From contig NZ_CP097269.1 in NCBI RefSeq assembly GCF_028473645.1, positions 4,482,001-4,546,000 of the forward strand: a stretch of DNA of 64,000 bases, read 5' to 3'. How positions within the stretch are numbered: position 1 is the stretch's first letter; every line of letters begins with the position of its first letter. The DNA is from Acidovorax sp. GBBC 1281. GTDB lineage: Bacteria; Pseudomonadota; Gammaproteobacteria; Burkholderiales; Burkholderiaceae_C. Positions 4,807 through 26,569 of the stretch are shown in pieces. The position numbers and the translations under genes were made by a program. Below the pieces are notes generated by a model, which was not told where the DNA came from, did no database searches, and worked only from the letters and a program-made list of their open reading frames with translations.

Positions 4807-6336
4807 TCAGCCCAGCGGCACCGGCACGAAGATCTTGTCGCCGTCGCGCTGGATGAGCAGGGCCACCGACTTGCCCGCCTTGGCCATCGCCTCGCGCACC
4901 TGCTCCACGCCCCGCGCCGGCGTGCCGTTGATGGCCAGCAGCACGTCGCCGGGCTGCACGCCGGCCAGGGCGGCGGGGCCGCGGGCATCCTCCACCAGCA
5001 GGCCGCCGTCCACTCCGGCATCGCGGCGCTCCTGCGGCTGCAAGGGCCGCAGCGCCAGGCCCAGCCGGCCTTTGCCGCTCGACTTTTCCGAACTGGCGAT
5101 CTTGGTGGCCTTCTCGCTCGCATCGCCCAGCGTGGCGGTGAACTCCTCGCGCTTGCCATGGCGCCACACCTCCAGCCGCGCCTGCGTGCCGGGCGCCGCC
5201 TGGCCCACGATGGCCGGCAGGTCGCCCGAGGCCACGATGGGCTGCCCGTTCACGCTGCGGATCACGTCGCCCGACTTCAGGCCCGCCTTGTCGGCCGGGC
5301 CGCCCTCTTCCACGCCGGCTACCAGCGCCCCTTCGGGCTTGTCGAGCTGGAACGAATCGGCAAAGGCCTGGTTCACCTCCTGCACCGACACGCCCAGGCG
5401 CGCATGGCTGGCATTGCCCGTGGCCAGGATCTGGTCCTTGACCTTGGCGGCCACCTCGATCGGGATGGAGAACGACACGCCCTGGTAGCCGCCCGAGCGG
5501 CTGTAGATCTGCGAATTGATGCCCACCACCTCGCCACGCGCATTGAACAGCGGGCCGCCCGAGTTGCCGGGGTTCACCGCCACGTCGGTCTGGATGAAGG
5601 GCACGTAGCTGTCGTCCGGCAGCGAGCGCCCCTTGGCGCTCACCACGCCGGCCGTCACGCTGTTTTCGAAGCCGAAGGGCGAACCGATGGCCAGCACCCA
5701 CTCGCCCACCGCCAGGTTGCGCGTGCTGCCCAACTGCACCACGGGCAGGTCCTTCGCGTCGATCTTGAGCACCGCGATGTCGGTCTTGGGGTCGGAGCCC
5801 AGCACCTTGGCCCGGAACTCGCGCCGGTCGGTCAGCTTCACCGTGACCATGTTGGCGCCCTTGACCACGTGGGCGTTGGTGAGGATCACGCCATCGGCGC
5901 TCACGATGAAGCCCGAGCCCTCGCCCCGCGTGGGCACCTCGCGCTGGCGGCTGGGGGCCTGCAGGCCGGGCGGCACCATGCCGAAACGGCGGAAGAACTC
6001 GAACATCGGATCGTTCGGGTCGATGCCCTGCGCGCCGCTGCGAGGGTGGGCCGCGGTCTCGTCATCGTCGTCGTCCGAATCGGTCATGGACGTCTTGGTG
6101 GTACCGCTCACACTGATGTTGACCACCGCCGGACCGTTGCGCGCGGTGATCTGCGCGAAGTCCGGCGCCGTCACGCCGCCCGTGTACGGCATGGCCGCCG
6201 GCTGCACCGCGGCGGGCGGCATGGCGGCGCGGCTGGAATGCATGTTGGTCACCAGCCCCGCGCCGGTGGCCCCGATGGCGCCGGCAGTGAGCAGGGCCAG
6301 GGTCAGGCGGCGGGGGGTCGATAGAACGGAGTTCAT
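4807..6336 (-). CDS. periplasmic serine endoprotease, HtrA/DegP-MucD family
   Basis: This 509-residue envelope protease/chaperone degrades misfolded periplasmic proteins. It carries an N-terminal signal or anchor segment (about 10-30) and then a trypsin-like domain with catalytic H156 (LTNAHVV), D186 (TDIAVLK) and S259 (NPGNSGGPLF). Two PDZ domains follow (about 300-395 and 410-505). The start at 6336 is supported by GAAAGGA 6 nt upstream; the open frame runs further but has no such site. An Asp-rich stretch (SDDDDDE near 87-93) lies before the protease domain. It precedes the two-component/cls operon on the same strand, which fits an envelope-stress unit. Confidence 0.93.
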   Translation of the reverse strand: MNSVLSTPRRLTLALLTAGAIGATGAGLVTNMHSSRAAMPPAAVQPAAMPYTGGVTAPDFAQITARNGPAVVNISVSGTTKTSMTDSDDDDDETAAHPRSGAQGIDPNDPMFEFFRRFGMVPPGLQAPSRQREVPTRGEGSGFIVSADGVILTNAHVVKGANMVTVKLTDRREFRAKVLGSDPKTDIAVLKIDAKDLPVVQLGSTRNLAVGEWVLAIGSPFGFENSVTAGVVSAKGRSLPDDSYVPFIQTDVAVNPGNSGGPLFNARGEVVGINSQIYSRSGGYQGVSFSIPIEVAAKVKDQILATGNASHARLGVSVQEVNQAFADSFQLDKPEGALVAGVEEGGPADKAGLKSGDVIRSVNGQPIVASGDLPAIVGQAAPGTQARLEVWRHGKREEFTATLGDASEKATKIASSEKSSGKGRLGLALRPLQPQERRDAGVDGGLLVEDARGPAALAGVQPGDVLLAINGTPARGVEQVREAMAKAGKSVALLIQRDGDKIFVPVPLG

Positions 6337-6385
6337 GGCAGTCCTTTCGTTGGCTCGTTGCATGGGGGCAGTTTGGGCAACGAGA

Positions 6386-6402
6386 CTTAGGTGTGGCTTA
6401 GG
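6386..6402. promoter_or_regulatory. CTTAGG-N5-CTTAGG direct repeat, candidate response-regulator site
   Basis: Two perfect hexamers CTTAGG (6386-6391 and 6397-6402) lie 11 bp apart, about 50 bp upstream of the htrA start. The spacing and sequence resemble the PmrA-type box (CTTAAG-N5-CTTAAG) used by OmpR-family regulators. One of these is encoded by the next operon. That it is functional is inference. Confidence 0.4.
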
Positions 6403-6582
6403 GGCATCCGGGGCTGACGATGCAGGCCAGGTTGCGGCGCAGTTCATTCGTTGGACGTGACCGAGAAGGCGCACCAAAGGGAAATCCCGCAGGCGGCCCG
6501 CCACACACAACCGCCACAATGCCCCCGCCGACAGCTCATCCATAAAGGACTGCGGCCACCGATCCAAAGGGAGGAAAAACCA

Positions 6583-8829
6583 TTGAACGACCCAGAGCAA
6601 GGCACTGGCACGCCGCGCTTTTATGCGCATTCCACCGGCAACGCGGACCAGGAAGGCTGGCAGCCTCTGCCGGACCATCTGCACGCCGTGGGCCGAGGGG
6701 CCGGAGAATTCGCGGCTGTTTTCGGCGGCGAGGCGCTGGCCCGGGTGATCGGACATCTGCACGACCTGGGCAAGTACACCGAGCCCTTTCAGGACCGGCT
6801 GCGCGGCAGTCCGCTGCGTGTGGACCACTCCACCTGGGGGGCACGCATCGCGCAGGAGCGCCTGGGGGACATGGGGCAACTGCTGGCCTACGGCATTGCC
6901 GGCCACCATGCGGGGCTGGCCAATGGGCAGGGCGAGGGCGAACGCACGGCCCTGGCCGACCGGCTGTCGTCCGACCTGCCGGCGCTGCACCCCGCGTGGG
7001 AACAGGACATCCCCTTGCCCGCTCGCCTCGGGGCGCCTGCGGGCTTCAAGCCCTACAGCGGCCAGGGCCGCCAGCAGGCCAAGGACCGGTATCCGTTCCA
7101 GCTGGCGTTTCTCGCACGCATGCTGTTCTCCTGCCTGGTGGATGCCGACTTCCTCGATACCGAGGCCTTCTACCACCTCGCTGAAAAACGCCCCGACCTG
7201 CGCCGTGGCGGCGGCGCGCCGCCCACGCTCGTAGCACTGCGCGAGCAACTCAACCACTTCCTGGGCCAGTTCCAGGCCGATAGCGGCGTGAACCGCCTGC
7301 GTGCCGACATCCTGCGCCATGTGCGGGGCCAGGCGGAGCAGGAGTCAGGATTGTTTTCGCTCACGGTGCCCACGGGGGGCGGCAAGACGCTGGCTTCGCT
7401 GGCGTTCGCGCTCGACCACGCCATTCGCCACGGGCTGCAGCGCGTGATCTTCGTGATCCCGTTCACCAGCATCGTCGAGCAGAACGCCGCCGTGTTCCGC
7501 AAAGCACTGGGCCCGCTGGGCGAGGCCGCCGTGCTGGAGCACCACAGCGCCTTCGTGGAACAGCCGCCCCCGCGCAATGACCCCGAGAAGTACCAGTCGG
7601 CCCAGAAGCTGCGGCTGGCCATGGAGAACTGGGACGCTCCCATCGTCGTCACCACCGCCGTGCAGTTCTTCGAAAGCCTGTTCGCTGCCAAGCCCTCGCA
7701 GTGCCGCAAGCTGCACCACATCGCGGGCAGCGTGGTGATCCTGGACGAGGCGCAGACCATGCCGCTCCAGTTGCTGCGGCCTTGCGTGGCCGCCATCGAT
7801 GAGCTGGCCCGCAACTACCGCACGAGCGTGGTGCTGTGCACGGCCACGCAGCCCGCCCTGGAGGCGCCGGCCTTCGAAGGCGGGCTCACGGGCGTGCGCC
7901 AGTTGGCACCCGAGCCGGACAGGCTGTTCCGCCAGCTCGAACGCGTGCGGGTGCGGCATGTGGGCACGCTGAGCGACGAGGCGCTGGCCACCGAGATGCG
8001 CTCGCGCGAACAGGTGCTGTGCATCGTCAACAACCGCCGCCATGCGAGGGCCGTGTACCAGGCCATGGCCGATCTGCCCGGCGCACGCCACCTGACCACG
8101 CTGATGTGCGCCAAACACCGCAGCGCCGTGCTGGCCGAGGTGCGGCAGATGCTCAAGGCTGGAAAGCCATGCCGGGTGGTGAGCACGAGCCTGATCGAAG
8201 CCGGCGTGGATGTCGATTTCCCTACCGTGCTGCGCGCCGAAGCGGGCCTGGACTCCATCGCCCAGGCGGCAGGCCGCTGCAACCGCGAAGGCGGCAGGCC
8301 CCTGGACGCCAGCGACGTGCTGGTGTTTGCCAACGCCAACGAAGACTGGGCCCCGCCGCCTGAACTGAAGCAATACGCCCAGGCCGCCCGCGAAGTGCTG
8401 CGTCAGAACGCAGGCGACCCTTCGTCGCCCGAGGCCATTGGCCGCTACTTCGCCCTGTTGTATTGGCAAAAGGGCGGTGATTCGCTGGACAAGCCCGACC
8501 TCATGGGCCTGCTGCGCGAAAGCCGCATCGACAGCCTTCCCATGGAAACGCTGGCCACGAAATTCCGCATGATCGACAGCGTGCAGATGCCGGTGATCGT
8601 GCCGTATGACGACGACGCCAAAGGCTTTCTGCGCGACCTGGAGCATGCCGAAGGCAGCGTCGGCCTCGCGCGCAAGCTGCAACCCTATCTGGTGCAACTG
8701 CCCCGCCAGGGCTTCGATGCGCTCTACAAGGCGGGCGCGGTCATTCCTGTCGCGCCTCAAAAATGGGGCGACCAGTTCATGGTGCTCGCCCATGACGGCC
8801 TCTACGACCCGCAATTTGGATTGAGCTGA
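6583..8829 (+). CDS. cas3: CRISPR-associated helicase/nuclease Cas3, type I-C
   Basis: Cas3 is recruited to Cascade-bound DNA, nicks it and unwinds/degrades it. The 748-residue protein has an N-terminal HD nuclease domain (H60-D61 in HLHDLGKY, GHH at 107-109). The SF2 helicase follows: Walker A TVPTGGGKT (261-269), a DEAQ form of motif II (388-391, ILDEAQTMP), ATQPA as motif III, STSLIEAGVDVDF, and QAAGRCNREG as motif VI. I chose TTG at 6583 because AGGGAGGA lies 7 nt upstream and the family begins near here. The frame is open 132 nt further upstream with no ribosome site. It is the first gene of the cas operon. Confidence 0.95.
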   Translation: MNDPEQGTGTPRFYAHSTGNADQEGWQPLPDHLHAVGRGAGEFAAVFGGEALARVIGHLHDLGKYTEPFQDRLRGSPLRVDHSTWGARIAQERLGDMGQLLAYGIAGHHAGLANGQGEGERTALADRLSSDLPALHPAWEQDIPLPARLGAPAGFKPYSGQGRQQAKDRYPFQLAFLARMLFSCLVDADFLDTEAFYHLAEKRPDLRRGGGAPPTLVALREQLNHFLGQFQADSGVNRLRADILRHVRGQAEQESGLFSLTVPTGGGKTLASLAFALDHAIRHGLQRVIFVIPFTSIVEQNAAVFRKALGPLGEAAVLEHHSAFVEQPPPRNDPEKYQSAQKLRLAMENWDAPIVVTTAVQFFESLFAAKPSQCRKLHHIAGSVVILDEAQTMPLQLLRPCVAAIDELARNYRTSVVLCTATQPALEAPAFEGGLTGVRQLAPEPDRLFRQLERVRVRHVGTLSDEALATEMRSREQVLCIVNNRRHARAVYQAMADLPGARHLTTLMCAKHRSAVLAEVRQMLKAGKPCRVVSTSLIEAGVDVDFPTVLRAEAGLDSIAQAAGRCNREGGRPLDASDVLVFANANEDWAPPPELKQYAQAAREVLRQNAGDPSSPEAIGRYFALLYWQKGGDSLDKPDLMGLLRESRIDSLPMETLATKFRMIDSVQMPVIVPYDDDAKGFLRDLEHAEGSVGLARKLQPYLVQLPRQGFDALYKAGAVIPVAPQKWGDQFMVLAHDGLYDPQFGLS

Positions 8830-17682: not shown

Positions 17683-18615
17683 CTAGGACAGGAAGAAGGC
17701 GATGAAGACGGGGGCCAGGATGGTGAGGATGAAGCCGCTCACCAGGGCCAACGGGACCGCATCCGGATGGCAGGCCTGCTTGACGATCGGAAGCGTGGAG
17801 TCCAGTGCCGTGGCGCCTGCACTGCCGATGCCGATCGCGGGCTGGTAGCGACCGATGGCGTAGAGCGCGACGATCGCTATCAGCTCCCTGAACAAGTCGG
17901 TCATCAGCGCCATGGTCCCATAGGTCTGCCCGAGGTGGTGCCCCACCATGACGCTCGACAGGGTGAACCAGCCGAAGCCGCTCGACAGCGCCAGCGAGGT
18001 TCTCATGGCCTCGCCCGTGGCCCAGGAGGCCGCGGCCGCGCCCACGAACGAGCCGATTACCACCAGCACCGGCACCGACAGTACGGCCCATGAAAACCAA
18101 TGGGAACTGAGCTTGACGTGGGCCAGGTCGATGCCCACCAACACGATCAACGCCAGCAGGATGGCGGAGCTCGACGGCAGCCAGAGGGCACCGGCCAGAT
18201 AGGCCTGATTGACGAAAAACAGGGCACTGCCCAGCGCCACCATGGACAGGGCGATGCAGCACTCCTTCAGCGGCGGCCAGATGGTGTGAAAGCCCAGTTT
18301 GCCGGCCTTGGCGCCCGCCGTGCCGCTGCTGCGAATGCCGGCCGCAAAAATCAGGCCGCAGGGCACCAGGGTGGTCAGCAGGGCGAAGATCACGGCCGTC
18401 TTGACCACCTGCCCGACCGATTGCGCAGAAAGAATGACCTCGCCAAACTCCACGCCGATCAGGAAAAGCAGCAGCCAGACCAGGGGCAATATCCAACCGA
18501 TCAGCCGCTTGCAAAATCGGAGCGGAATGATTTTCCCGGCAAGAAAACCGCCCACCAGCGCCAGCACGATCGGGAGCAAGGGGCGCTGTTGCACAAATCG
18601 AATTGCAGACGGCAT
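17683..18615 (-). CDS. lysO: LysO/DUF340 family lysine exporter, N-terminus supplied by an IS
   Basis: The protein is 310 residues of mostly TM helices. From residue 12 on it matches LysO (YbjE), the L-lysine exporter: LLPIVLALVGGFLAGKIIPL, GFGWFTLS, DLFRELIAI, GATALDSTLPIV, and FILTILAPVFIAFF at the C-terminus. The first 11 codons (MPSAIRFVQQR) are read from the end of an IS903-group element that starts at 18582, so only the first few native residues have been replaced. The native promoter is gone; transcription would have to come from the IS, whose transposase remnant points the same way. Function may be kept, but expression is uncertain. Confidence 0.82.
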   Translation of the reverse strand: MPSAIRFVQQRPLLPIVLALVGGFLAGKIIPLRFCKRLIGWILPLVWLLLFLIGVEFGEVILSAQSVGQVVKTAVIFALLTTLVPCGLIFAAGIRSSGTAGAKAGKLGFHTIWPPLKECCIALSMVALGSALFFVNQAYLAGALWLPSSSAILLALIVLVGIDLAHVKLSSHWFSWAVLSVPVLVVIGSFVGAAAASWATGEAMRTSLALSSGFGWFTLSSVMVGHHLGQTYGTMALMTDLFRELIAIVALYAIGRYQPAIGIGSAGATALDSTLPIVKQACHPDAVPLALVSGFILTILAPVFIAFFLS

Positions 18616-19486
18616 GACCCCAACCCCAGACGGACCTATGCCACAGCAGTCACCGACACGGTGTGAGGACGGCCGATCTGACTGAACCGATTGAGCAAGG
18701 CCACGCGGACATGCAGCTCCACAACCTGGCGGTCGAACGTGCGCGCGATCACCCGTTCGCCCAGTCGCTTGAAGCAGTGCATCTTCGTCTCCACAAGGCT
18801 GCGCCGGTGGTAGCCGCTCCACTTCTTCCAAATGCCGCGACCCAGGCGCTGGCACGCCCGAATGGCCTCATTACGATGCGCCGAGCCCGGACTCGACTTC
18901 TTCCAATGGCTGGCGTTCTTGCGGGGCGGGATCACCGCCATCGCGTGCCGCTCGGCAATGGCGTCCAGGCAGGCGCGCGTGTCGTAGGCGCCATCGGCAC
19001 TGACGCTTTCGATGGATTCGTCAGTGGGAATCTGAGCCAGCAACCCGGGCAACATCGGCGCATCCCCAATGGCGTTGCTGGTCACCTCGATGGCGCGTAT
19101 TTCCAGCGTCTGCGCGTCGATGCCCAGATGGACCTTGCGCCATTCGCGCCGGTATTCAGCACCATGCTTCTTGCGTTTCCACTCTCCTTCGCCCAGGAAC
19201 TTGATGCCGGTGCTGTCCACCAGCAACTGCAGCGGCGAGTTGGTTCGCTGGTAGCTCAGTTCGACCTGCAAGGTCTTTTGGCGCCGGCAAACAGTGCTGA
19301 AGTCAGGTACCGGCCAGTCCAGCTTTGCCAGCCGCAGCAGGCTCTGCACCATGCCCAGCGCCTGTCGCAAGGGCTGGCCGAACAGGCACTTGATGCTCAG
19401 GCAGAACTGGATTGCTGCGTCCGAGAAGGTTCGGCTGCGTCCACGCCTGCCGGTCGGCGTGCCAAACCACTGCATGCCCTCATCTA
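18582..19486 (-). mobile_element. IS5 family (IS903 group) remnant, 5' part lost
   Basis: The terminal repeat GGCGCTGTTGCACAAATCG begins at 18582. The sequence then matches the intact copy at 58618-59668 up to 19486, where an IS630-type element starts. The missing part includes the other terminal repeat and the first 34 transposase codons. The 9 bp beside the retained end are GGAGCAAGG; no partner duplication remains. Confidence 0.93.
18636..19486 (-). pseudogene. truncated IS903-group transposase
   Basis: Codons 35-316 of a 316-residue DDE transposase are present; the translation from residue 38 on is identical to that of the complete copy at 58664-59614. The first 34 codons were removed where the IS630 element joins (the break is in the Leu-34 codon CTA). 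The DDE residues themselves (LLVDSTG, SADGAYD, RSLVETK) remain, but there is no native start. An internal ATG at 19475 could in principle give 279 residues. Confidence 0.9.
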
Positions 19487-20645
19487 GTGTCCTGTCCCGT
19501 TAATTCGCAGGCACGATAGCTGCATGGTTTCGGGCCATCCTTGAGGTGCCGCCATGCCCAATGCAACGACCCGAACAGAAATTGCGCTTAGTGAAGTGGA
19601 GCGCGCGGAACTGACGTCCATGGCGCGATCACGTTCGCTGCCAGCGGCGTTGTCGCTCAGGGCGCGCATCGTGCTGACTTGCGAAGGCACAGATAAAGCC
19701 AGCACCGCGGTTGCGCAGGCTCTGGGGATCAGTCGTAGCACTGTCACCAAGTGGCGCGGGCGCTATGCGCGCCATCGCATTGCAGGGCTTTACGACGAGT
19801 TGCGCCCGGGTCGCCCCCGCACGGTAGATGACGAGCGTGTTGCTGAGTTGATTACCAAGACGTTGCACACCAAGCCTGCTGATGGGGGTACCCACTGGAG
19901 CACCCGCACGCTGGCCGCCGATACGGGCATCAGCAAGAGCACGGTGGCGCGCTATCTGCAGACCTTCAACCTCAAGCCGCACCGGGCCGACAGCTTCAAG
20001 CTGTCGACCGATCCGCTGTTCATCGAGAAGCTGCGCGACGTTGTGGGGCTGTACCTGAACCCACCTGACAACGCGCTGGTGCTGTGCGTGGACGAGAAGA
20101 GCCAATGCCAAGCTTTGGAGCGTACGCAGCCGATGCTGCCAATGGGGTTTGGCTATGTCGAAGGTGTCACGCACGACTACGTGCGCCACGGCACCACCAC
20201 CTTGTTCGCGGCCCTGAACGTGATGAATGGCCAAGTGATCGCGCAGTGCCGGCCCCGGCATCGTCATCAAGAGTTCCTTGCCTTCCTGCGCGCCATCGAC
20301 AAGGCAGTGCCCGACGAACTGGATGTGCACTGCATAGCTGATAACTACGCCAGCCACAAGCATCCAAAGGTGCGCGCTTGGTTGGCCGAGCGGCCTCGCT
20401 GGCACATGCACTTCGTTCCGACCTATTCAAGCTGGCTCAATCAGGTCGAGCGCTTCTTCTCGATCATCACCACGCGGGCAATCCGCCGTGGCTCGTTCAC
20501 CAGCGTGAAGGATCTGATCAACAAGATCGACACATTCATCGCGAATTACAACCAGTCCTGCCAGCCGTTTACTTGGACAGCTACAGCAGACTCCATCCTC
20601 GAAAAACTCGCCAGACTATGCGGGCGAATTAACGGGACAGGACAC
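19487..20645 (+). mobile_element. IS630 family element, copy A
   Basis: The element is 1159 bp with perfect 22-bp terminal inverted repeats (GTGTCCTGTCCCG...; 19487-19508 and 20624-20645), flanked by TA on both sides (19485-19486, 20646-20647). The left flank is IS903 sequence. The right flank is not the continuation of IS903, so the two flanks were not adjacent before insertion. It is the same length as copy B, with an identical predicted transposase. Confidence 0.95.
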
Positions 20646-20648
20646 TAG
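19554..20648 (+). CDS. IS630 family transposase, copy A
   Basis: This 364-residue DDE transposase has an N-terminal helix-turn-helix region (STAVAQALGISRSTVTKWRG, and a second near TGISKSTVARYL). The catalytic core has D in LCVDEKSQ, D in IADNYASHKH and E in SWLNQVERFF. The frame runs through the right inverted repeat (…GRINGTGH), and its TAG stop is made of the TA target duplication plus the next G, so the stop is not inside the element. Confidence 0.95.
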   Translation: MPNATTRTEIALSEVERAELTSMARSRSLPAALSLRARIVLTCEGTDKASTAVAQALGISRSTVTKWRGRYARHRIAGLYDELRPGRPRTVDDERVAELITKTLHTKPADGGTHWSTRTLAADTGISKSTVARYLQTFNLKPHRADSFKLSTDPLFIEKLRDVVGLYLNPPDNALVLCVDEKSQCQALERTQPMLPMGFGYVEGVTHDYVRHGTTTLFAALNVMNGQVIAQCRPRHRHQEFLAFLRAIDKAVPDELDVHCIADNYASHKHPKVRAWLAERPRWHMHFVPTYSSWLNQVERFFSIITTRAIRRGSFTSVKDLINKIDTFIANYNQSCQPFTWTATADSILEKLARLCGRINGTGH

Positions 20649-21862
20649 TCCCCGTCGGTCGCGTGATTAAGCGCTCTCCCCGCGACCACAGCGAAGGGGT
20701 CCTTAACACCCAATCTCAGGCAGGAGTCCTCAGGCTTGAGATCGAGCTCGACCGTCACGGAGAAACTGATACATTGGTCGCCAACGTCGACGTCTATCCA
20801 GCCAAGTTCGATGTCGTCTCCTACCGGTCGATGATCGACGATATCTGCAGACACTCCCTGTCACTGGCGTTGCGACTGAGCGCTGTGACAGCAGTACCTC
20901 TGAGCGTCTCCGAACGAACCGAAGAGTCCGGCATCGCTCAGCGCTTTTTTTTCATCCGACACTTGCTGGGCGACACGGGATTCCGATTGGCACTAGAGCA
21001 GGTCACCAGGAGTCCGCACACCAGAGTCGAACGCGAGCTTTCGAGCCGCTCGCTGGCGAGTGCGAAGCGATTGGACGCACGAAGCGTTCGCGCTTTGGCG
21101 ACTGGGCGCGACCGCGTGCCTGTACCCGCCGGACATGCGCTCGCGCGCTTTGGTTCGTTACCGAGAAGCGGCGTGTCGCGGCTGCCCGTCGAGACAACAG
21201 ATACCGCGGAAAACCGTTTCATACGCTTTGCGTTGCACGAGTTCGCGCATGCACTGTCGACGATCGTGTCGATCTGCAGCAAGAGCGACAAGGCTTCTGA
21301 TCGACGTATCGCGAAAGAAGCTACTCGGATGGACGCACGGCTCAGGGGAACGCTCGATCATCCCGTCTTGAGGGATCTAGGAGAGAGTTCGATGCTGCCG
21401 CTCGGCAGTCCGGTTCTTCATAAGCGTGCCGGGTACCGCGAGATCTTCGGAGTATGGCTGCAGTTCCACATTGCCGCTTCCCTGGTCTGGGAAGGAAGCG
21501 CGGATGTATTCGGTGCGGGAAAGCGGGACACCGATAAACTGTACGAGTATTGGCTGTTCTTCCAATTGCTCGCAGTGCTGTCGACGCATCTGGGGGTGAC
21601 AATGCCGCCGCCCGAAGATCTGGTGTCGGATTCGGACGACGGGCTTTCGCTGCGTCTCAAAGCGGGGCGAAGCTTCGTGCACGAAGGCGTGACGCTCAAG
21701 GGCATTTACCCCCTGACTGCGAGATTTTCTTATAACCGCACATTCGGCAGCAACATCGACGAATCCGCTGCGGGCTCGTGGTCGTTGACCATGCGCCCCG
21801 ACTTCACGGTGAGCCTGTGGCCAGCAGAAATCGACGCGGAACTCGCCGAACAACTGCATCTA
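20648..21862 (+). pseudogene. DUF2357 / PD-(D/E)xK nuclease gene, 5' fragment
   Basis: The frame is open from the IS630-A junction; the first usable start is GTG at 20663. The 400 codons visible contain a DUF2357-type (McrC N-terminal-like) region and ENRFIRFALHEFAHAL. They end with SWSLTMRPDFTVSLWP, which fits the first (PD) part of a PD-(D/E)xK active site. IS630 copy B interrupts the gene at 21862. The N-terminus is probably also missing, because the frame continues into copy A and the family is usually longer. Such proteins pair with AAA+ McrB-like ATPases in modification-dependent restriction. No such partner is in the window. Confidence 0.75.
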
Positions 21863-22954
21863 GTGTCCTGTCCCGTTAATTCGCCCGCATAGTCTGGCGA
21901 GTTTTTCGAGGATGGAGTCTGCTGTAGCTGTCCAAGTAAACGGCTGGCAGGACTGGTTGTAATTCGCGATGAATGTGTCGATCTTGTTGATCAGATCCTT
22001 CACGCTGGTGAACGAGCCACGGCGGATTGCCCGCGTGGTGATGATCGAGAAGAAGCGCTCGACCTGATTGAGCCAGCTTGAATAGGTCGGAACGAAGTGC
22101 ATGTGCCAGCGAGGCCGCTCGGCCAACCAAGCGCGCACCTTTGGATGCTTGTGGCTGGCGTAGTTATCAGCTATGCAGTGCACATCCAGTTCGTCGGGCA
22201 CTGCCTTGTCGATGGCGCGCAGGAAGGCAAGGAACTCTTGATGACGATGCCGGGGCCGGCACTGCGCGATCACTTGGCCATTCATCACGTTCAGGGCCGC
22301 GAACAAGGTGGTGGTGCCGTGGCGCACGTAGTCGTGCGTGACACCTTCGACATAGCCAAACCCCATTGGCAGCATCGGCTGCGTACGCTCCAAAGCTTGG
22401 CATTGGCTCTTCTCGTCCACGCACAGCACCAGCGCGTTGTCAGGTGGGTTCAGGTACAGCCCCACAACGTCGCGCAGCTTCTCGATGAACAGCGGATCGG
22501 TCGACAGCTTGAAGCTGTCGGCCCGGTGCGGCTTGAGGTTGAAGGTCTGCAGATAGCGCGCCACCGTGCTCTTGCTGATGCCCGTATCGGCGGCCAGCGT
22601 GCGGGTGCTCCAGTGGGTACCCCCATCAGCAGGCTTGGTGTGCAACGTCTTGGTAATCAACTCAGCAACACGCTCGTCATCTACCGTGCGGGGGCGACCC
22701 GGGCGCAACTCGTCGTAAAGCCCTGCAATGCGATGGCGCGCATAGCGCCCGCGCCACTTGGTGACAGTGCTACGACTGATCCCCAGAGCCTGCGCAACCG
22801 CGGTGCTGGCTTTATCTGTGCCTTCGCAAGTCAGCACGATGCGCGCCCTGAGCGACAACGCCGCTGGCAGCGAACGTGATCGCGCCATGGACGTCAGTTC
22901 CGCGCGCTCCACTTCACTAAGCGCAATTTCTGTTCGGGTCGTTGCATTGGGCAT
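21860..22954 (-). CDS. IS630 family transposase, copy B
   Basis: The 364 residues are identical to the copy A transposase, with the same DDE residues. The stop TAG (21860-21862, complement) is again formed by the target TA and the adjacent C/G base, not by the element. Both copies look complete, so either could be active. Confidence 0.95.
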   Translation of the reverse strand: MPNATTRTEIALSEVERAELTSMARSRSLPAALSLRARIVLTCEGTDKASTAVAQALGISRSTVTKWRGRYARHRIAGLYDELRPGRPRTVDDERVAELITKTLHTKPADGGTHWSTRTLAADTGISKSTVARYLQTFNLKPHRADSFKLSTDPLFIEKLRDVVGLYLNPPDNALVLCVDEKSQCQALERTQPMLPMGFGYVEGVTHDYVRHGTTTLFAALNVMNGQVIAQCRPRHRHQEFLAFLRAIDKAVPDELDVHCIADNYASHKHPKVRAWLAERPRWHMHFVPTYSSWLNQVERFFSIITTRAIRRGSFTSVKDLINKIDTFIANYNQSCQPFTWTATADSILEKLARLCGRINGTGH

Positions 22955-23021
22955 GGCGGCACCTCAAGGATGGCCCGAAACCATGCAGCTATCGTGCCTG
23001 CGAATTAACGGGACAGGACAC
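21863..23021 (-). mobile_element. IS630 family element, copy B
   Basis: The element is 1159 bp with the same 22-bp terminal repeats as copy A but in the opposite orientation. TA duplications lie at 21861-21862 and 23022-23023. Removing the element plus one TA restores an uninterrupted reading frame (CAT CTA GCG GTT), so this is a simple insertion at a CTAG site inside the nuclease gene. Confidence 0.96.
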
Positions 23022-23023
23022 TA

Positions 23024-23815
23024 GCGGTTCACCTACATTTCGACTCCAAGTACCGTCTGCGCGACGTTTCGGAGCAAACGCAGGAACTGCGGGGCTCGTT
23101 CAGGCGCGAAGACCTCTTCGTCGCACATACCTACCGTGACGCCATCCGTCGTTCCTGGGGGGCATTCGTGATCTATCCCGGGGACGAGGAGCCGCCGACG
23201 CTGCACCGTGCCCATCGGAAGGCGATGCCCGGAGTCGGCGCGTTTCCCGTGAAGCCGACGGTTGACGGGCAGCCGAACGGCATCGAGTCGATCGGCGAAC
23301 TGCTTGAACAGGTCGTACAGCACTTCGGAGAATCGCTGGCACCCCGAGAACGCCTGAGGAATGCCGCTTGGGTGGCCTGCGGATCGCGCTTCGACCTGCC
23401 GGGTGAAGGTCTGATACTCGTGCCGGATGCGGAGTGTTGCTTTCCGCTGCCCTCCGAAAAAGGGGATGGTTGTTTCGCTCTGCGACTGTCCGGTCGTGCG
23501 GGAGAATCGATCCTCGACGTCGAGGCCTGGAAGATTAGCGGCTCCATTCTCATCGACGGCGAGGACACATCCTCGTTGCTGCTTGTGCCTATCAGCTCAG
23601 TCGAGCAGGGGCCGACAGCGCTCGGGTTTTCCGAGCCACCGGGCCTGCATGACTCAAAACGGCTTTGCGTGATCCTTCGGCTCGATCTGGAGGCCGCCGT
23701 GCGGCTCGCTCCGAAAAACTTGTCGTCTCTCCTCGATCTCAGAAGATTCACCGCGAACTATCTCGGATGCTGCGCGACGCCGGCGGTGGTGAAGACGTTC
23801 ATGGTTCGGCTCTGA
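23024..23815 (+). pseudogene. DUF2357 / PD-(D/E)xK nuclease gene, 3' fragment
   Basis: The frame continues exactly in phase from the 5' fragment after IS630-B. It opens with AVHLHFDSKYRL, where D-x-K forms the second half of the PD-(D/E)xK nuclease site. The next 250 residues follow without a stop to 23815. Both active-site halves are intact but separated by the insertion, so no functional nuclease should be made. The gene ends 10 nt from the convergent vsr gene. Base composition is less GC-biased than the core genes around it, in line with an acquired origin. Confidence 0.78.
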
Positions 23816-23825
23816 GCGGCTCAGA

Positions 23826-24260
23826 TCAGAACTCACCGGCGCGTGGCGTAGAAGATCGGATCTTGGCGGCAAGATCGGTGGCCGACTTGTGAACCGCATT
23901 GCCTTTGGTTTCGCATTCCCAGACGACAAACACCCTCCAGCCGAGCTTTCCTAGTTCATCCGACTTGCGGCAGTCCCTTGCCACGTTGGCTGCAATCTTC
24001 GGGATCCAGTAGTCGGTATTGGTCGTAGGAAGGCGACCCGCCCGACACGTATGACTGTGCCAGAAGCAACCGTTGACGAACACTGCGGCCTTATGTTTCG
24101 GAAAGATCATATCGGGCCGCCCTGGAAGGTCAGTCGGATGCAATCGAAACCTTAACCCCAACCGATGAAGCGCCCGGCGAAGCGTCAGCTCCGGCGCAGT
24201 ATTCTTTTGCGCGATCCGTGCCGTCAAGGCACTACGCTTGGTCTTGGAAAGAAAATCCAT
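23826..24260 (-). CDS. vsr: very short patch repair (Vsr) type endonuclease
   Basis: The 144-residue protein is of the Vsr family, which nicks DNA at T:G mismatches arising at methylated cytosines. It shows PELTLRRALHRLGLRFRLH, GRPDMIF (catalytic Asp), FVNGCFWHSHTC (zinc-binding Cys and the His after Trp) and WRVFVVWECE. E. coli Vsr has Thr-His where this has Val-Asn before GCFWH, a change common in Vsr relatives not tied to Dcm. The start at 24260 matches family N-termini; an extension to 24395 is possible. No cytosine methyltransferase is present in the window. It probably belongs to the same defence cargo as the nuclease gene. Confidence 0.87.
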   Translation of the reverse strand: MDFLSKTKRSALTARIAQKNTAPELTLRRALHRLGLRFRLHPTDLPGRPDMIFPKHKAAVFVNGCFWHSHTCRAGRLPTTNTDYWIPKIAANVARDCRKSDELGKLGWRVFVVWECETKGNAVHKSATDLAAKIRSSTPRAGEF

Positions 24261-24406
24261 CAAAGTGTCGCCTTCGTCGGAAGCACGAGGTGGCGTACGT
24301 CCTGTTTCGCCGGCTTTTCGTTGCGGCAATCCGTCAAAGGGTACCGTACAAATGATCCTTTCTTCCGTTGGACTAAATTTTCGCCGGCCATCCAAGCCAA
24401 AAACTT

Positions 24407-24472
24407 GTCCACGACTTTATTGCGATGTCTACGACTCTATTGCCACGTCTACGACTTTATTGGCACGGAACA
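24407..24472 (-). mobile_element. right end of a Tn7-like transposon at attTn7
   Basis: Three tandem 20-bp units lie at 24407-24426, 24427-24446 and 24447-24466. Read on the minus strand the first is GCCAATAAAGTCGTAGACGT, close to the Tn7 TnsB site GACAATAAAGTCTTAAACT (from memory). The outermost unit is preceded by TGTTCCGT, an 8-bp terminus beginning TGT as in Tn7 (TGTGGGCG). The end at 24472 lies 36 bp past the glmS stop, in the orientation Tn7 uses (right end with close-packed sites next to glmS). A 5-bp duplication would be ACTGT (24473-24477). No tns genes or left end are seen. Confidence 0.82.
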
Positions 24473-24508
24473 ACTGTCGCGCAGCAGTGCGGGAGCCGCC
24501 ACAAGCAC

Positions 24509-26431
<1,923 letters not shown>

Positions 26432-26569
26432 AGACGATCTCCTGAAAGGAATGTGGATGGGCGATGGTAGGCAGGGCATCAAGAAATATGTACAAATTAT
26501 TCAAACAATCTTTGGAATTAAATTTCTCATAAAACACCTATTGAAATTTAATTCCATAAAATTAGCCAC
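26432..26569. promoter_or_regulatory. AT-rich divergent promoter region between glmS and the Lrp-type gene
   Basis: These 138 bp contain long A/T runs (AAATATGTACAAATTATTC, TTAAATTTCTCATAAAAC) that contrast strongly with the GC-rich surroundings. Such tracts are typical of Lrp-type binding regions and of strong promoters; autoregulation by the adjacent gene is plausible. Confidence 0.4.

Follow-up and report, generated by a model that had tools for sequence, protein, structure and literature searches.

A packed array of repeats lies downstream of glmS

A vsr gene and an interrupted nuclease gene lie directly 3' of glmS in this chromosome, with short tandem repeats between them and the glmS stop codon, and the locus raises the question of how this island came to be there. 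We analysed it within the window, meaning the whole stretch of 64,000 nucleotides (G000:C1:4482001-4546000, strand +, where G000 denotes the genome that the window comes from). A repeat search returned one direct-repeat family, with 20-nt copies at 24406-24425, 24426-24445 and 24446-24465, the second and third copies being 85% and 80% identical to the first. TRF placed a repeat of period 20 and 3.0 copies at 24407-24467, and its score of 87 was the highest among the 55 repeats listed for the window. Read on the minus strand, the units are of the GCCAATAAAGTCGTAGACG type. The elements at this border are:

24406..24465, minus strand: three tandem 20-bp putative TnsB-type sites in the packed right-end arrangement (repeat search, TRF, motif count)
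24465..24472, minus strand: 8-bp TGT transposon terminus, TGTTCCGT (its position relative to the array matches that of 50 other measured loci)
24473..24477, minus strand: predicted 5-bp target duplication on the right-end side (by analogy with Tn7-like elements)
24509..26482, minus strand: glmS, the 3' end of which is the Tn7 attachment site (SIS and GATase domains; relatives' proteins 80-98% identical)

A 17-mer core of the repeat, allowing up to three mismatches, matched the window three times, always within the array, and none of 100 shuffles (0/100) reached three matches. When the entire window genome was searched for the core motif with at most two mismatches, three sites were found, all within this array. 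The repeat search, TRF and the motif count (three matches against 0.01 expected) bear out the sequence-only reading, which had described three 20-bp tandem units and an 8-bp terminus. It had also given a gap of 36 bp between the glmS stop and the start of the terminus, and the glmS coordinates (24509-26482, minus strand) agree. The same reading had named repeats in uninserted strains as the observation that would tell against a transposon end. We read the 110 bases 3' of glmS in 17 genus members, the window genome included, and such a case was not seen: the array was absent from all of the others (16/16), three of which have other Tn7-type end motifs or fragments at this position.

The arrangement resembles that of Tn7, which also has an 8-bp terminus followed by tandem TnsB-type sites, turns its right end towards glmS and inserts just past the stop, at a distance given in PMC2918618 as about 20 bp. 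As described in PMC11406308, the two ends of Tn7 are asymmetric and the end with overlapping sites is the one nearest the attachment site; that end has four partly overlapping 22-bp sites, whereas the units in the window measure 20 bp. The window further differs from Tn7 in its distance of 36 bp from the stop and in that neither tns genes nor a left end were found.

Related ends are linked to tns genes

The sequence-only reading had called for full elements with the same end and tns genes, and we searched other genomes for them. The search was positive in Thiomonas sp. FB-6, where the end TGTTCCTTGCCAATAAAGTCGTAGACA comprises three units at 20 bp and starts 25 bp after glmS. An 18-kb contig of this genome (NZ_KB898522.1; L306) carries glmS at 5165-6973, the end from 6999, cargo, tnsA-tnsB-tnsC and tniQ, and terminates within the tniQ ORF. 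We assigned tnsA by PF08722, tniQ by PF06527 and tnsC by AAA_22, with TniB just below the cut-off. The tnsB product has no Pfam match; it was matched by TnsB alignment A1 at 618 bits and also by tblastn with a TnsB of the rve/Mu-C type from another cluster of the window genome. The FB-6 element is thus of the same end type as the window, with three units in register at glmS, and differs in its terminus lying 25 bp from the stop (36 bp in the window) and in its cargo, which includes a RelA/SpoT domain, a ParA-like protein and a STAND-like ATPase. TnsD (PF15978) was found neither in FB-6 nor in the genome of locus L156. The joint presence of this end type and tns genes in FB-6 supports the central claim of the earlier reading, that the array is a Tn7-like right end whose tns genes and left end have been lost.

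More distant ends gave a similar picture. In Simplicispira hankyongi (G219) a related end at glmS is backed by tnsD, tniQ, tnsC, tnsB and tnsA, again as the search for full elements had anticipated; tnsB was named here, as in FB-6, from its position and from tblastn or A1 similarity, since neither protein matches Pfam. In Rhodoferax BP02 (G125) the right end at glmS is likewise a related one, followed after approximately 18 kb by tnsD and tniQ and, in between, by PIN, UvrD, integrase, IS91, AbiTii, SLOG/TIR and ThsB-TIR genes, a cargo of defence type. Both ends differ from the window's, where the three sites are in register: they combine two close sites with one lying deeper in the element (AATTAAAGTCGTAAAC type). 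When the flank on the tns side was searched by motif, no left end emerged in G219 or G223.

To gauge how often such ends occur with transposition genes, we scored 50 array-bearing genomes, picked from 72 loci with isolates and near ends first, not all of the arrays being at glmS. TnsD exceeded its cut-off in 16 of the 50. Alignment A1 matched a TnsB in 19 of 58 entries, equivalent to 18 of ~53 distinct genomes (five were entered twice, and the window genome was included and negative), compared with 12 of 200 family genomes in a control for which at most five candidates per genome were scored; weak matches to TnsB of other types enter the survey and control counts alike. In 29/50, no TnsD passed its cut-off and no TnsB was matched, a figure weakened by the many drafts and MAGs among these genomes. 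The results suggest that Burkholderiales may often carry right ends that lack transposition genes.

The window genome retains one end

Within the window, no left end was detected by site motif, terminus or expected target duplication, and a second group of sites, as the spaced sites of a left end would form, was absent from the window and from its genome at the mismatch limits used. No TnsB of the A1 clade was matched in the window genome. By the TniQ search, TnsD was not found there either: the search returned a single protein, in another locus 0.8 Mb away. A complete Tn7-like element has a left end and tnsABC together with TniQ or TnsD; these parts were not found here and we read them as lost, which makes the locus a remnant and not a complete member of the group.

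The single TniQ belongs to a second Tn7-like cluster at ~5.319-5.324 Mb of G000:C1 (L076:10942-15469), composed of tnsA, tnsB, a tniB-type tnsC and tniQ and situated beside IS66. Its tnsB is split across two overlapping ORFs. The cluster is not at glmS, and sites of the window motif are absent from the surrounding 49 kb.

The cargo resembles part of a restriction cassette

Behind the array lie the following genes:

20651..21857, plus strand: 5' piece of a DUF2357/PD-(D/E)XK nuclease gene, cargo (PF09823, PF04411; Sinorhizobium medicae match begins at residue 133)
23025..23815, plus strand: 3' piece of the same gene, cargo (residues 514-637 of the S. medicae DUF2357 protein)
23826..24260, minus strand: vsr, cargo (ORF open to 24395, Vsr domain from an internal ATG; TIGR00632, 147.3 bits, cut-off 97.85)

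Judged by its family score, vsr looks intact. The reference DUF2357 protein of S. medicae has 653 aa and the first piece aligns only from residue 133, so the left junction probably also cut off the 5' part of the DUF2357 gene. The DUF2357 and PDDEXK_7 domains are present, and no partner gene, such as the McrB-type GTPase of McrBC-like Type IV restriction, is found in the remnant; DUF2357 is described in PMC11090510 as the N-terminal domain of McrC. In 600-base segments the G+C content of the cargo, insertion sequences included, is 0.55-0.63, below the 0.67-0.70 of glmS, with some other stretches of the window equally low.

Among the loci fetched, neither the same vsr nor the same DUF2357 gene stood behind any other right end, and DNA similarity to plasmids was confined to short vsr matches in two records. 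A comparable gene set is present on Rhizobium leguminosarum p_2 (CP050566.1, L307), which encodes, in this order, a cytosine methylase, a weakly matching ATPase-like protein, DUF2357 and vsr; in S. medicae and S. fredii the methylase, a large upstream gene and DUF2357 occur without vsr. As in the window, the R. leguminosarum DUF2357/PD-(D/E)XK gene adjoins vsr (Vsr 52.5% identity over 120 aa). The DUF2357 proteins of the two are distant (22% over 239 aa), the R. leguminosarum genes are co-directional whereas vsr and DUF2357 in the window are convergent, and the methylase and ATPase genes of that cassette are both missing from the remnant. By analogy with a methylase-ATPase-DUF2357-vsr restriction cassette, what the window has kept would correspond to the 3' half. 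Without the methylase, the nuclease would have to be inactive to be tolerated, and it seems to be so.

An IS630 junction forms the left border

The cargo is bounded and interrupted by insertion sequences:

18580..19483, minus strand: IS5-family fragment, N-terminal side missing (NF033579)
19484..20648, plus strand: IS630-family copy 1, flanked by the IS5 fragment to its left and by cargo to its right; probable recombination junction and left border (NCBIfam NF033545, from which the IS630 name is taken)
21858..23024, minus strand: IS630-family copy 2, within the DUF2357 gene, borders to within a base or two (domain and copy comparison)

The window genome harbours at least 44 full copies of the IS630 element, including both in the window, and at least 40 IS5-family matches. 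Of the 44 copies, 17 are neatly embedded in IS5, 22 lack IS5 on both sides and five are chimaeric, copy 1 of the window being one of the five. Since copy 1 joins two unrelated flanks, IS5 and cargo, recombination between IS630 copies probably accounts for the loss of the rest of the element. An inversion at this junction, instead of a deletion, is possible: at L329 and L339 two IS630 copies have the missing IS5 half beside other DNA. Against it, the flanks examined for the 44 copies showed no convincing tns or cassette gene. As an observation on the insertion sequences themselves, the 17 copies (17/44) occupy one site within the IS5-family element, one of them inverted, which suggests that IS630 within IS5 is a composite that spread.

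How far the deletion reached is less clear-cut. Among 18 glmS-downstream stretches from 14 genomes, no gene was syntenic with the left flank of the window, so that a native neighbour of glmS was not recovered. Genes common 3' of glmS in G208, G209, G190 and G088 gave weak, short matches in the window genome, which fits a deletion reaching into the chromosome. In G212, however, those genes are on another contig than glmS; they are hence not a fixed neighbour in the genus, and the point on the extent of the deletion is a soft one.

Distances and site arrangements at other glmS loci

A pattern of two units in register occurred in 89 stretches of the genome collection, 80 of which were listed as loci, mostly from Burkholderiales. 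The distance survey covered 83 loci, namely these 80, the window, L064 and L277, the last being from the same genome as L156. Both the glmS end and the terminus were recognised in 51 of the 83; the other 32 lay at contig ends, had arrays distant from glmS or escaped the search expression. Of the 51 measured loci, 47 had the terminus 21-25 bp past the stop and the remainder had it at 1, 5, 28 and 36 bp, the window's 36 bp being the largest. Inspected by eye, the spacer showed no repeated 5-bp footprint of a second element that had inserted later and been lost.

The ends nearest to that of the window among those seen were from G159 (L064, two units), L156/L277 and Thiomonas sp. FB-6 (L146, three units), with terminus TGTTCCTT in both FB-6 and G159. 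Behind the near-identical right end of G159 (L064:835-7593) a 2252-aa DUF4011/MTES_1575/DUF3320 protein is encoded, with a match to PADLOC PDC-S37. A 20-mer search with three mismatches matched 97 of 399 genomes of the order, mainly at chance level, and a reversed control pattern gave frequent matches too; apart from the window, the one informative match was in G534, the genome that contains L156. At the L133, L136 and L138 junctions, three spaced sites are followed by 5 bp and then by a packed array, which fits the left/right asymmetry of Tn7-like ends.

A Tn7-like remnant and its alternatives

Taken together, the results make it very probable that a Tn7-like transposon once inserted 3' of glmS left its right end at 24406-24472, its remainder having probably been lost by IS630 recombination. 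Directly observed are the end type, its position and the tnsABC and tniQ genes linked to it in a relative, and neither a left end nor tns genes of this type were found in the window genome. On this basis, a TnsD/TniQ protein would have directed insertion 3' of glmS, bringing the packed TnsB-type sites to lie beside the attachment gene. Recombination between IS630 copies would then have deleted the left end, the tns genes and the upstream genes of the cassette, possibly along with neighbouring chromosome. What is left would be one end, an intact-looking vsr and a DUF2357 gene split by IS630 and probably truncated at its 5' side, a remnant presumably immobile by itself. Counting against this history are the distance of 36 bp compared with the usual 21-25 bp, a deletion deduced from a single junction together with the genes not found, the possible inversion, the failure to find TnsD in FB-6 or the genome of L156 and to find this cargo at any other locus fetched, and G159, where two units of this end type are accompanied by no TniQ or A1 match.

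The last of these points would suit a non-autonomous mini-element, with two ends and cargo and no tns genes, mobilised in trans and not left behind by a deletion. The 29/50 array-bearing genomes without TnsD over cut-off or a TnsB match are in keeping with such elements, as is the defence-like DUF4011/MTES_1575 gene behind the near-identical two-unit end of G159, without TniQ or A1 TnsB. Yet neither the window nor 40 kb of G159 yielded an inverted end, the same end type accompanies tnsABC in FB-6 and the left border here appears as an IS630 recombination junction, and we regard a mini-element as very unlikely.

It is also unlikely that the right end was left by an older, lost element and that the vsr-DUF2357 DNA arrived separately. 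The region is indeed IS-rich and rearranged, and among the loci fetched no relative has vsr-DUF2357 cargo behind the same end. On the other hand, cargo and array adjoin directly, no further border being visible, the G+C content of the cargo is below that of glmS (though equally low values occur elsewhere in the window), and defence-type cargo follows such ends in G125 (AbiTii, ThsB-TIR) and in G159. The position directly 3' of glmS might finally suggest an ordinary repeat of the glmS 3' region, such as a terminator or regulator site. This is scarcely credible given the 16 other genus members without the array, three of them with other Tn7-type end motifs or fragments, and given similar arrays that have no recognised glmS end within 400 bases or that lie beside spaced left ends.

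Orphan right ends at glmS

Read as a Tn7-like remnant, a puzzling island beside glmS is explained as a transposon fossil, and the locus itself becomes an ordinary one. Such fossils can be recognised from an array of just 60 bp. The Tn7 literature, as far as it was searched, describes neither this locus nor orphan right ends beside glmS, and the survey opens the question of whether orphan ends decay passively or protect the attachment site. A further reading, which we consider improbable as matters stand, is that Burkholderiales commonly have orphan right ends at glmS and perhaps retain them for target immunity, conferred by a packed TnsB array next to attTn7; if true, the array would shield the site from incoming elements of the same TnsB specificity. 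The tandem junction at L133, with the same terminus type on both sides, indicates that such insertions do happen, and the apparent abundance of orphan ends draws on many drafts and MAGs and on 50 genomes hand-picked from 72 loci.

At L133, L136, L137 and L138 left and right Tn7-like ends abut across a short spacer (5 bp where measured), the abutting ends being those of elements stacked in tandem, in one case with the same terminus type on both sides. Repeated copies of the glmS 3' end with adjacent right ends of two motif types occur at L038 and L045 (G035:C6) and at L089, as if successive elements had accumulated 3' of glmS. A second end-motif type (AAATAAAGTCCGTCGGG) is found 3' of glmS at L048, L046 and L051, the close relative G208 being among these genomes. 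In G208, ~16 kb separate glmS from genes that lie closer to it in three other genus members.
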